A stretch of DNA of 25,013 nucleotides. Source: a virus. Under the pieces are notes generated by a model. It was not told the origin of the DNA and did not search any database. It was given only the letters and a program-made list of their open reading frames with translations. This document shows positions 7,698 to 11,329 of the stretch, piece after piece (the first letter of the stretch is position 1; every line of letters starts with the position of its first letter). The DNA is taken from positions 1-25,013 of IMG/VR virus record IMGVR_UViG_3300033153_002573, one strand, 5' to 3'. A program made the translations under genes and the position numbers.

Positions 7698-9533
7698 ATG
7701 TTAAAAACTATTACAACAGAAGAACTGCTCAATCGTGGCAGGGACCTCACAAGACCAACCTTTGCCGATATAGAATCAGAAGATTTGTACTATAATTGTT
7801 CTCTTATACAACTCCGTTCAAATGGACATACAGAGATTGTAAGAACAAATTCTGATGAAGAAGTAGCTCAAGCAATTGAGTATATGAAACCATTACACCT
7901 TGTATTTTGGGGTGGTAATTATGATTTGGGTACATTGAAATTTGTACCAGAAAAACTAGATGATTTATGGATTGCTTTTAAGATAGCTTATCCATCAGTA
8001 CCTGGTCAGAACTTTGACCTACTTAGTGCTTGTAAGCATCTGGGTTACAAAGACCTCTATGTAGATATAGAGAAGAAGGGTATGCAGAAAGAAGGTTTTG
8101 TTCGCAAAGCTTATCTATCTCAAGCTCAACTACAGTATGCTAGTGATGATGTAGAAGCACTAGATAGAATGTGGCAAGATGAAAAGATACAGAAGGTTAT
8201 TCAAAACAATCTTGCTTATCGTCTTGCTATCTATGCACTCAGAGAATCTGTTCAATGGCAGCAGAATGGTCTACCTATTCTGAAAGATACTGTTGCTAAA
8301 TATAAGATAGATACGCAGGTTAAGATAGATAAGTATATGGCAGAGCTAGAAGCTATTGCAGGCTTTCCTCTTAACCCTAGAAGCTCTAAGCAGGTTAAAG
8401 AGTATCTAGGTACTCCTACTTCTGATAAGGCTATTCTAACAAGGATAGCTATTGAGGGTGAACTAGATGAAGCTAAAGAATATGCAGCGAAGGTTAGAGT
8501 TAAAGCACGTCATGCACAGAGCTTTACACCTGAGGAGCAACAAGCAGCAGAAGTAATACTCTTGGCAAGGAAGGCAAAGAATGATTTATCTAAACTCAAC
8601 CAGTACAGCTTTGACAAGTTATATGGTTTCTTCAGTCCTGTTGGAGCGAGAACAAGTCGTTGGTCTTGTAAAGGAAGCAAAGCTATCCCAAACACCAACA
8701 ACCTCCAGAACTATAGTCGTGACTTCAAATCTTGTTTTGGAATTAAAGCAGGCAGTGGACAGATAATAGTTGCTGCTGACTTTGCTACTCTAGAGATTAG
8801 AATCGCTGCGGCAATAATGAATGAACCTAACATGTACAGAGCATTGATGCGAGGTGAAGATATCCATAAGACTACGGCTTCTCTTATATATGGTAAGCCG
8901 ATTGAAGAAGTTCATGGTCGTGAAAGAAGTAATGCTAAGGTTGCAAACTTTGGTTTAACTTATGGCATGGGTAGAGAAACATTCAAACACTATGCTTATG
9001 ATATGTATGGTATCAAGTTTACAGATGTAGAAGTTAAAGAGCTTGTTGGTAAATTCTTCACAGCTTACCCTGGTCTAAAGAGATATCATACTATGGTAGG
9101 TGATAAATTACGTAAACATAACTATGTGTGTCAAACTGCTCTTGGTTATAGAATGAAGCCAAAGCAATATGCAGAAGCAATTAATGGTCCTACTCAAGGT
9201 ACTGGTGGTGAGGTTATGCGTCTTGCTATTCATATATTGATAGAAAAAGATAATAGAGCAACGAGGTATATAGTTAATTCTATACATGATGCGGCGTATC
9301 TGATAGTACCAGTAGAAGATAAAGATTACTGGGGTAAGCTATTACAAGATAGTATGCAAGAAGCATGGTATGAGATTAGAAAGTCGAAAGTATTCCACTA
9401 CCATGATATCCCAATGCCAGTGGATTTAATGTTTGGTTACTCTATGGGTGACTTAGAAGAAGATTTCTCAGGTGGTGGTCAAGCACTATCAGTTGCAGAA
9501 CTTAAAGCCGCGAAAGCAAGGAATCATTTATGA
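7698..9533 (+). CDS. Family A DNA polymerase with 3'-5' exonuclease
   Basis: This 611-residue protein is the replicative polymerase, similar in layout to T7 gp5. Exonuclease domain (1-180): Exo I D24-I-E26, Exo II-like GGNYDLGTL near 75, and Exo III YASDDVEAL near 150. Polymerase domain: fingers R410...K414...FGLTYG (ERSNAKVANFGLTYGMG), motif A AADFATLEIR with D361, and motif C SIHDAAY with D531. The Glu normally after the motif C Asp (HDE) is Ala here, and motif A has ATLE instead of the usual SQIE. There is no 5'-nuclease domain; a separate 5' nuclease is encoded at 11329. AAGGA precedes the ATG. The stop overlaps the next gene (ATGA), tying it to the dCMP-type enzyme. Confidence 0.93.
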   Translation: MLKTITTEELLNRGRDLTRPTFADIESEDLYYNCSLIQLRSNGHTEIVRTNSDEEVAQAIEYMKPLHLVFWGGNYDLGTLKFVPEKLDDLWIAFKIAYPSVPGQNFDLLSACKHLGYKDLYVDIEKKGMQKEGFVRKAYLSQAQLQYASDDVEALDRMWQDEKIQKVIQNNLAYRLAIYALRESVQWQQNGLPILKDTVAKYKIDTQVKIDKYMAELEAIAGFPLNPRSSKQVKEYLGTPTSDKAILTRIAIEGELDEAKEYAAKVRVKARHAQSFTPEEQQAAEVILLARKAKNDLSKLNQYSFDKLYGFFSPVGARTSRWSCKGSKAIPNTNNLQNYSRDFKSCFGIKAGSGQIIVAADFATLEIRIAAAIMNEPNMYRALMRGEDIHKTTASLIYGKPIEEVHGRERSNAKVANFGLTYGMGRETFKHYAYDMYGIKFTDVEVKELVGKFFTAYPGLKRYHTMVGDKLRKHNYVCQTALGYRMKPKQYAEAINGPTQGTGGEVMRLAIHILIEKDNRATRYIVNSIHDAAYLIVPVEDKDYWGKLLQDSMQEAWYEIRKSKVFHYHDIPMPVDLMFGYSMGDLEEDFSGGGQALSVAELKAAKARNHL

Positions 9534-10309
9534 TTAGTTCAGCAGAACGACAGTACTATCAGTTGATAGAAATGATACAGAGCAATGGAACAGAGTCTAA
9601 ACCTACTAAAGGTACTTGCCTCTCAGTGTTTGGTCATACTATTACTCTGATACCAGAAGAGGTACCTTTACTATTAGGTAGAAAGATTTATTGGGAAGGT
9701 CTTGTAGGAGAACTACGAGCGTTCATAGCCAATGAGAACACAGTGGCAGGCTTTGAGAGTCATGGTTGTAACTTCTGGGGTTCATGGAGTAATGAAGATG
9801 GTTCACTTGATGTGGACTATGCTAGATTGCTACACAACTTCAATGAGGTTAATCAGCTATCAAGAGTGATAGGCAATATCTGCTTGAGACCTCATAGTAG
9901 GAAACATGTTATCAGTCTATGGGACCCTAGCAGTGATGCTAAGCAGGTGCCTTGCGTGCTGAGTTATCAGTGGTACGTATCTGCTGGTAGACTACATATG
10001 ATATGGACACAGCGTAGTGCTGATGTTATGGTAGGTCTTGCCTCTGATATGTTCAGTGCTTGGCTGCTTAACAAACTAATGGCTGGTACCTGTAGTCTTA
10101 AACCTGGTACTGTTACAATGAATCTAGGTGACTGTCATATCTATGAAGAGCACTATGAAGCAGTTGATATATATAAGGATGCAGTATGGGCTAGTGAGTC
10201 TATTGCTAATCAGCCTATATGCAGAACTTATGGTAGCATAAAAGATTTCAGTATTCAGTTACAGTATTACAATCCAATGCCGCCTATTAAATTCGAATTA
10301 AAGGTTTAA
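9530..10309 (+). CDS. Thymidylate synthase homologue, probable dCMP hydroxymethylase
   Basis: This 259-residue protein matches the thymidylate synthase (TS) fold throughout: FGHTITL near 34, E61 in the first helix, W83, Y97, R124, catalytic Cys C142 (VPCVLSYQWYV), QRSAD (R162), and LGDCHIY (H203, Y205). In TS the Asn of GLPFNIASY contacts the uracil ring; the aligned position here is Asp (GLASDMFS, D173). The same Asn-to-Asp change sets cytosine preference in T4 dCMP hydroxymethylase. The His after the catalytic Cys is Val, also as expected of a non-TS member. It therefore probably acts on dCMP, transferring a one-carbon unit from methylene-tetrahydrofolate to C5. The product could be hydroxymethyl-dCMP or methyl-dCMP. 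The start overlaps the polymerase stop, so co-expression is likely. Confidence 0.8.
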   Translation: MISSAERQYYQLIEMIQSNGTESKPTKGTCLSVFGHTITLIPEEVPLLLGRKIYWEGLVGELRAFIANENTVAGFESHGCNFWGSWSNEDGSLDVDYARLLHNFNEVNQLSRVIGNICLRPHSRKHVISLWDPSSDAKQVPCVLSYQWYVSAGRLHMIWTQRSADVMVGLASDMFSAWLLNKLMAGTCSLKPGTVTMNLGDCHIYEEHYEAVDIYKDAVWASESIANQPICRTYGSIKDFSIQLQYYNPMPPIKFELKV

Positions 10310-10310
10310 C

Positions 10311-10682
10311 ATGAAAGTAGGAATATTATTACTATCTGCTGATGGATACTATGTTGATGAGGACGGGTTCTTACCTGCTCGTCCAGACTTTGATAAGAAG
10401 CTACTATTAGGTTTGTGCAATAACCAGACCTATATTTGTAGCCCTAAGACTCTAGAAACTCTACCGCTGAGTCTATTAATGATAGGCGAGAAAGCAACGA
10501 GTGAAGAGTATGATATCAACTTGGGAGTGAAAACTCTCTACACGTTACCTCCTCATCTATTGATAGTGGTGAGAAGTAACGAGGAGCTAAAAGCAGGCAA
10601 GAAGTTTGATTTAACAGGTTTTAGGCAAGTTTATGATTCTAATGATTTGGAATTGTATATCCTTAGAACGATATCAGAATAA
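10311..10682 (+). CDS. Small protein, weakly dihydrofolate reductase-like
   Basis: A 123-residue protein starting one base after the TS-like gene's stop. The first 55 residues recall the start of dihydrofolate reductase: a strand KVGILLLS, then GYYVDEDGFLPARPDFDKK where an acidic residue follows Leu-Pro, then a strand and SPKTLETLP in place of GRxTWES. The end (AGKKFDLTGFRQVYDSND) resembles the C-terminal DHFR strands. It is about 35 residues shorter than bacterial DHFR and lacks a clear glycine-rich cofactor motif, so activity is doubtful. Being next to a folate-using enzyme strengthens the idea. It may instead be an unrelated protein. Confidence 0.4.
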   Translation: MKVGILLLSADGYYVDEDGFLPARPDFDKKLLLGLCNNQTYICSPKTLETLPLSLLMIGEKATSEEYDINLGVKTLYTLPPHLLIVVRSNEELKAGKKFDLTGFRQVYDSNDLELYILRTISE

Positions 10683-10824: not shown

Positions 10825-11055
10825 ATGCGAGAAATGTCAATTGTAGACTTTATCAATGAGCGATTAGATTCTGGCGAGTATGATAGAAACTTTGAACTTG
10901 GTACAGAATTAAATATCAGTTCAGCACAGCTAACACATTATAAAATGGGTAGAACTAGGCAGTCATCCCTTGAGTTAGCTCAAAGGATTTATACTAAGTA
11001 CCAGGTTGTTATATACCCTTACTCAGAAGGAGCAGTAGATGTTTCAGAAAGATGA
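10825..11055 (+). CDS. XRE/Cro-type helix-turn-helix regulator
   Basis: This 76-residue protein has one DNA-binding domain: residues about 25-58 (LGTELNISSAQLTHYKMGRTRQSS) show the Cro/C1 pattern of helix 2, turn and recognition helix, with the Y-K-x-G-R step that follows helix 3 in the XRE family. It is the first gene behind promoter P3 with a very short leader, so autoregulation is likely. ATTAAGA-type sequences shared by all three promoters are possible targets. The 3' end overlaps the next gene by 17 bases. No membrane or enzyme part. Confidence 0.75.
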   Translation: MREMSIVDFINERLDSGEYDRNFELGTELNISSAQLTHYKMGRTRQSSLELAQRIYTKYQVVIYPYSEGAVDVSER

Positions 11056-11329
11056 TAGCAAGAAACTACGATTAGAATTAATAGACCCGACCTTTATTAA
11101 TGGAGTAGGTGCAGTGTTAACATTTGGTGCTGAGAAATATACAGCGAACAACTGGAAGCAAGCTAATTCTATGGTTAATAGAGAGAGAATAAAAGGTGCT
11201 ATGCTTAGGCATCAGATGGCCTATGCTAACGGCGAGAAGAATGACCCTGATAGTGGTCTACACCATATGTATCATATAGCTTGTAATGCAATGTTTCTAG
11301 CTTATCATGATATGCACGAAGGAGCTTAA
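11039..11329 (+). CDS. dATP/dGTP diphosphohydrolase-like (MazG-type) protein
   Basis: A 96-residue all-alpha protein that matches the phage family usually annotated as dATP/dGTP diphosphohydrolase N-terminal domain (DUF5664). Signature pieces: VLTFGAEKYTANNWKQ, a central RIKGAMLRHQMAYANGEKNDPDSGLHHMYH, and a closing ACNAMFLAYHD helix. The Glu/Asp/His set in GEK-DPDSGLHH is where the family places metal ligands. It should cleave a dNTP to dNMP and pyrophosphate; substrate cannot be read off. T4 uses a dCTP pyrophosphatase of the same broad MazG-like class to clear dCTP and supply dCMP, so a dCTPase role next to a dCMP-type enzyme is possible. GAAGGAG lies upstream. Confidence 0.75.
   Translation: MFQKDDSKKLRLELIDPTFINGVGAVLTFGAEKYTANNWKQANSMVNRERIKGAMLRHQMAYANGEKNDPDSGLHHMYHIACNAMFLAYHDMHEGA

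Follow-up and report, generated by a model that had tools for sequence, protein, structure and literature searches.

The viral DNA fragment analysed here (25,013 nt, hereafter the window) carries, within a run of replication genes, a gene for a protein of the thymidylate synthase (TS) family. The question it raises is whether this protein acts on cytosine, and whether a methyl or a hydroxymethyl group would be the product of that action.

The gene and its protein family

The gene and its surroundings were annotated as follows.
7698..9533, + strand: family A DNA polymerase (PF00476, E 1.8e-39)
9530..10309, + strand: TS-family protein of 259 aa, predicted dCMP C5-methylase (PF00303 match and AlphaFold2 model)
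9953..9955, + strand: codon of the catalytic C142 (C146 of E. coli TS, EcTS), invariant in a 12-member alignment
10311..10682, + strand: 123-aa gene directly downstream of the TS-family gene, weakly DHFR-like (PDB profile matches, hhalign)
10825..11055, + strand: small HTH-like protein (the counterpart in the relative L003 matches HTH_3, E 1.3e-5)
11039..11329, + strand: dATP/dGTP diphosphohydrolase-family domain, candidate dNTP diphosphohydrolase (PF18909, E 1.3e-26)

The ATG of the TS-family gene lies within the 3' end of the polymerase gene, the two overlapping by 4 bases, and one base separates the gene from the next one downstream; it therefore belongs to a replication operon. Its product matched PF00303 over the full length (E 2.3e-47, residues 8-258). 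The AlphaFold2 model of the protein (pLDDT 88) had E. coli TS as its best structural match, and the superposition on 1tys (Z 31.9, 1.6 Å, 249 residues) extended through the last residue. The catalytic set named in the original prediction (C142, E61, R162, H203 and Y205) was present as claimed and, together with D173, was invariant in the 12-member alignment. With the full-length family match, the TS fold and the catalytic Cys, Glu, Arg, His and Tyr, the protein is a member of the TS family. Its identity to E. coli ThyA is ∼26%.

The residue that reads the base

Canonical dUMP TSs carry Asn at EcTS position 177, and cytosine readers carry Asp. The residue of the window protein at this position is encoded as follows.
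10046..10048, + strand: codon of D173 (EcTS N177 column; T4 gp42 D179), placed by an ungapped HMMER alignment

It had been claimed that D173 lies opposite the TS Asn, and this was borne out. The HMMER alignment was gapless at this point (QRSADVMVGLASDMFSAW / QRSADIFLGVPFNIASYA), and multiple alignments also placed D173 in the Asn177 column of E. coli TS. The column was occupied by Asp in 19 of 19 members of a podovirus clade (the window, 11 viral contigs and 7 annotated phages) and by Asn in all 7 canonical TSs aligned. The strongest associations with cytosine-modified phage contigs were reported for positions 177 and 147, and when Asn was changed to Asp in an engineered TS (N177D), 5mdCMP was formed (PMC8670742); the Asp of the window protein is natural. 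The link between Asp177 and cytosine-modified phage DNA is thus already published, and the window sequence is a further instance of it. Because D173 stands in the N177 column, Asp is found throughout the clade and the D177 association has been published, dCMP is the likely substrate of the window enzyme.

An ordinary TS that tolerates Asp177 and still acts on dUMP would be in keeping with the other TS catalytic residues and the C-terminal tail, both of which are kept, and with the fact that TS genes are common in phages. Such an enzyme is nevertheless very improbable here, given that Asp is found in every clade member at a position known to select the pyrimidine (PMC8670742). In addition, the phage Triscuit has a canonical Asn177 TS and, next to it, a distinct homologue with Asp177; an enzyme of the Asp form can accordingly occur alongside a TS.

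The original prediction had also pointed to a Val after the catalytic Cys. This residue is present (V143, EcTS position 147), but it is not diagnostic of cytosine, since B. subtilis ThyA combines Val at 147 with Asn177 (PCVYETQWYV); in the other clade members, position 147 is His. As for the sugar, the window protein keeps Ser163 and Arg124 (EcTS S167 and R126), whereas MilA, which shares the Asp at the cytosine-reading column, has Ala176 and Lys133 at the equivalent positions, and these confer its ribo-specificity. The window protein therefore differs from CMP hydroxymethylases of the MilA/BcmA type, and dCMP rather than CMP would be the expected substrate.

Methylation versus hydroxymethylation

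Hydroxymethylases of this family have a two-part signature: Asp or Glu at the third residue ahead of the catalytic Cys, and Ser or Thr at the second residue ahead of the catalytic Tyr (PMC6400193). The D145N variant of the T4 enzyme makes no 5hm-dCMP. Two codons of the window gene bear on this signature.
9944..9946, + strand: codon of Q139, 3 residues before the catalytic Cys (alignments; rule from PMC6400193)
9815..9817, + strand: codon of D96, adjoining the catalytic Tyr97 (Asp throughout the 19-member clade)

T4 gp42, the SP8 enzyme and MilA have Asp at the -3 position relative to the catalytic Cys, while the window protein has Gln139, most of the clade and EcTS have Leu, and the genus of phage Xp12 has Asn. 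Two residues before the catalytic Tyr, the window protein has Val (V95-D96-Y97), so neither part of the signature was found. T4 gp42 also has no TS C-terminal tail and no Trp at the W83 position, whereas in the window protein Trp86 occupies the place of EcTS W83 and the C-terminal tail aligns through EcTS residue 264. Since the hydroxymethylase signature is absent and both the Trp83 position and the TS tail are kept, methylation of dCMP, leading to DNA with 5-methyl-dC as in Xp12, is favoured over hydroxymethylation, and 5-methyl-dCMP is probably the likelier product. The comparison with the T4 dCMP hydroxymethylase made in the original prediction was consequently upheld for the Asp at 177 and for the catalytic Cys, Glu, Arg, His and Tyr, which the two enzymes share, but not for the features that distinguish gp42. 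In the same way, its proposal of a cytosine substrate is supported by D173, the clade-wide Asp and PMC8670742, and of the two products it allowed, the hydroxymethyl form appears less likely than the methyl form.

If the enzyme were nonetheless a dCMP hydroxymethylase like T4 gp42, water would resolve the methylene intermediate, D96 would replace T4 D145, and the phage DNA would contain 5-hydroxymethylcytosine. Asp177 as in T4 gp42 and MilA, the invariance of the acid D96 within the clade, and a polar Gln139 instead of Leu would all agree with this scheme. D96 corresponds to EcTS position 93 and was found outside the clade only in Triscuit66, itself an Asp177 protein; its acid would lie near the Ser94/Asp145 site of T4, making activation of water by another acid possible. 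Besides the missing signature residues, the kept Trp83 position and the kept tail, hydroxymethylation is opposed by the gene content: the carbamoyltransferase of hypermodification was found in 0 of the 24 records searched, and nothing glucosyltransferase-like was seen by eye among the larger ORFs in other parts of the genome of the relative L002. Taken with these points, a hydroxymethylase is considered unlikely.

The reading that we prefer, which has a somewhat better than even chance of being correct, is that the window protein converts dCMP and 5,10-methylene-tetrahydrofolate to 5-methyl-dCMP, which then enters the phage DNA. In this reaction, C142 would attack C6 of the cytosine ring, E61 would aid the opening of the cofactor, and D173 would hold and protonate the cytosine. 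A closed, TS-like pocket would then allow a hydride to be transferred from tetrahydrofolate, leaving dihydrofolate. Host or phage kinases would convert 5-methyl-dCMP to 5-methyl-dCTP, the phage polymerase would use the latter instead of dCTP, and the resulting 5-methylcytosine DNA would, like that of Xp12, be guarded against restriction. The diphosphohydrolase encoded nearby may clear dCTP and yield dCMP, as T4 gp56 does. Modified cytosine in the phage DNA is plausible on these sequence grounds. No biochemical test of any clade enzyme or phage was found in the literature surveyed; restriction data on the isolates may exist.

Gene neighbours, relatives and the Xp12 type

The Pfam searches covered 24 records, of which 21 had PRA-PH/MazG matches, 17 a dCMP deaminase and 9 a PF18909 domain. 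Neither a dCMP deaminase nor a MazG-family gene was found by Pfam in the window (a 25-kb fragment) or in L002; in L003 a dCMP deaminase was likewise not found, and a MazG-like protein missed by Pfam was detected by PHROG. The frequency of the deaminase bears on another scheme, a thymidylate shunt in which dCMP would be converted to 5-methyl-dCMP and then, by deamination, to dTMP, leaving ordinary cytosine in the phage DNA. In MW202744, MW202665 and the Xp12-genus phages, the deaminase gene lies close to that of the TS-family protein, and PMC8543423 cites a "new thymidylate biosynthesis" in cells infected with Xp12. On the other hand, the window and its relatives L002 and L003 are among the records in which no deaminase was found, and Xp12 itself still carries 5mC, which makes the shunt improbable.

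The 123-aa gene is conserved downstream of the TS-family gene in L002 and L003. Among the six PDB profile hits of its product, five were DHFR (E 0.16-1.2), with the likeness in the N-terminal half, and hhalign gave a probability of 35-52 for DHFR versus 0.6 for a TS control. A phage search at E up to 1 gave no match for the protein, and neither Pfam nor PHROG assigned it to a family; a pattern scan showed no viral-contig relative, and its model was poor (pLDDT 41). Kinship to DHFR is thus suggestive; a DHFR gene beside an enzyme that produces dihydrofolate would fit methylation, and the main case does not rest on it.

The podovirus clade includes Edwardsiella KF-1, Vibrio VPMS1, Dickeya Amaethon, Pseudoalteromonas PH1 and environmental contigs. 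Its support in the tree was 88/92, compared with 98/99 for the Xp12-genus group and 100/100 for the pair of the window and L002. The two groups were separate in the tree; in AU tests, a single origin of all Asp177 enzymes gave p 0.27 and the joining of T4 gp42 to the podovirus clade p 0.31. The genus-mates AXL1 and DLP4 and their relatives stood in for Xp12 as the reference for its type. This type shares with the window protein the TS family, Asp177 and the lack of an acid at -3. AXL1 and DLP4 have NTP-pyrophosphohydrolase, TS, dCMP deaminase and DHFR genes together, and such neighbours (DHFR-type in the case of the last) are shared by the podovirus clade at group level, although no deaminase was found in the window. 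AXL1 DNA resists the majority of restriction enzymes whose recognition sites contain C (PMC9206674). The two types also differ: proteins of the Xp12 genus show N-V-P-C-P, have Phe in the place of W83 and end in another C-terminus, whereas the window protein has Q-V-P-C-V, Trp and D96. D96, Gln139 and Val at 147 also distinguish it from E. coli ThyA.

The residue switch itself was known before. Tentatively, and with rather less than even confidence, the podovirus clade may be regarded as a second dCMP methylase lineage, distinct from the Xp12 group and with its own active-site set (D96, with Q139 in the window branch), in which 5-methylcytosine would take the place of cytosine in podoviruses of ∼40 kb that infect marine and enteric bacteria. 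Within the literature surveyed, Xp12 is the only phage in which a complete exchange of cytosine for 5-methylcytosine is documented; for relatives of Xp12 it is suspected. If the proposal is true, DNA modification in small podoviruses could be studied directly in the cultured phages KF-1, VPMS1, Amaethon and PH1, and the family would offer a natural series on hydride transfer versus water addition in TS-type enzymes.

Several minor observations were made in the same records. The two TS homologues of the Microbacterium phage Triscuit are adjacent (L039:593-2298), with a dCMP deaminase nearby, and its Asp177 homologue also has Asp at 93. The "bifunctional DHFR-TS" annotated in MW202744 (L016:329-1339) was considered as a second TS and rejected, as it had no TS or DHFR family match; the record contains one TS, and the annotation looks wrong. 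In KF-1, one ORF (L031:13338-13946) holds both dCMP deaminase and PF18909 domains, and shared open frames suggest a fused dCMP deaminase-PF18909 ORF in Amaethon, PH1, L004 and L006. The L002 genome (L041:2768-3496) encodes a 242-aa protein, the C-terminal part of which appears SET-domain-like by eye. Finally, a protein of 746 aa is encoded at positions 490-2730 of the window; neither Pfam nor PHROG gave a match for it, and the VPMS1 gene in its place is annotated as a P4-type primase.
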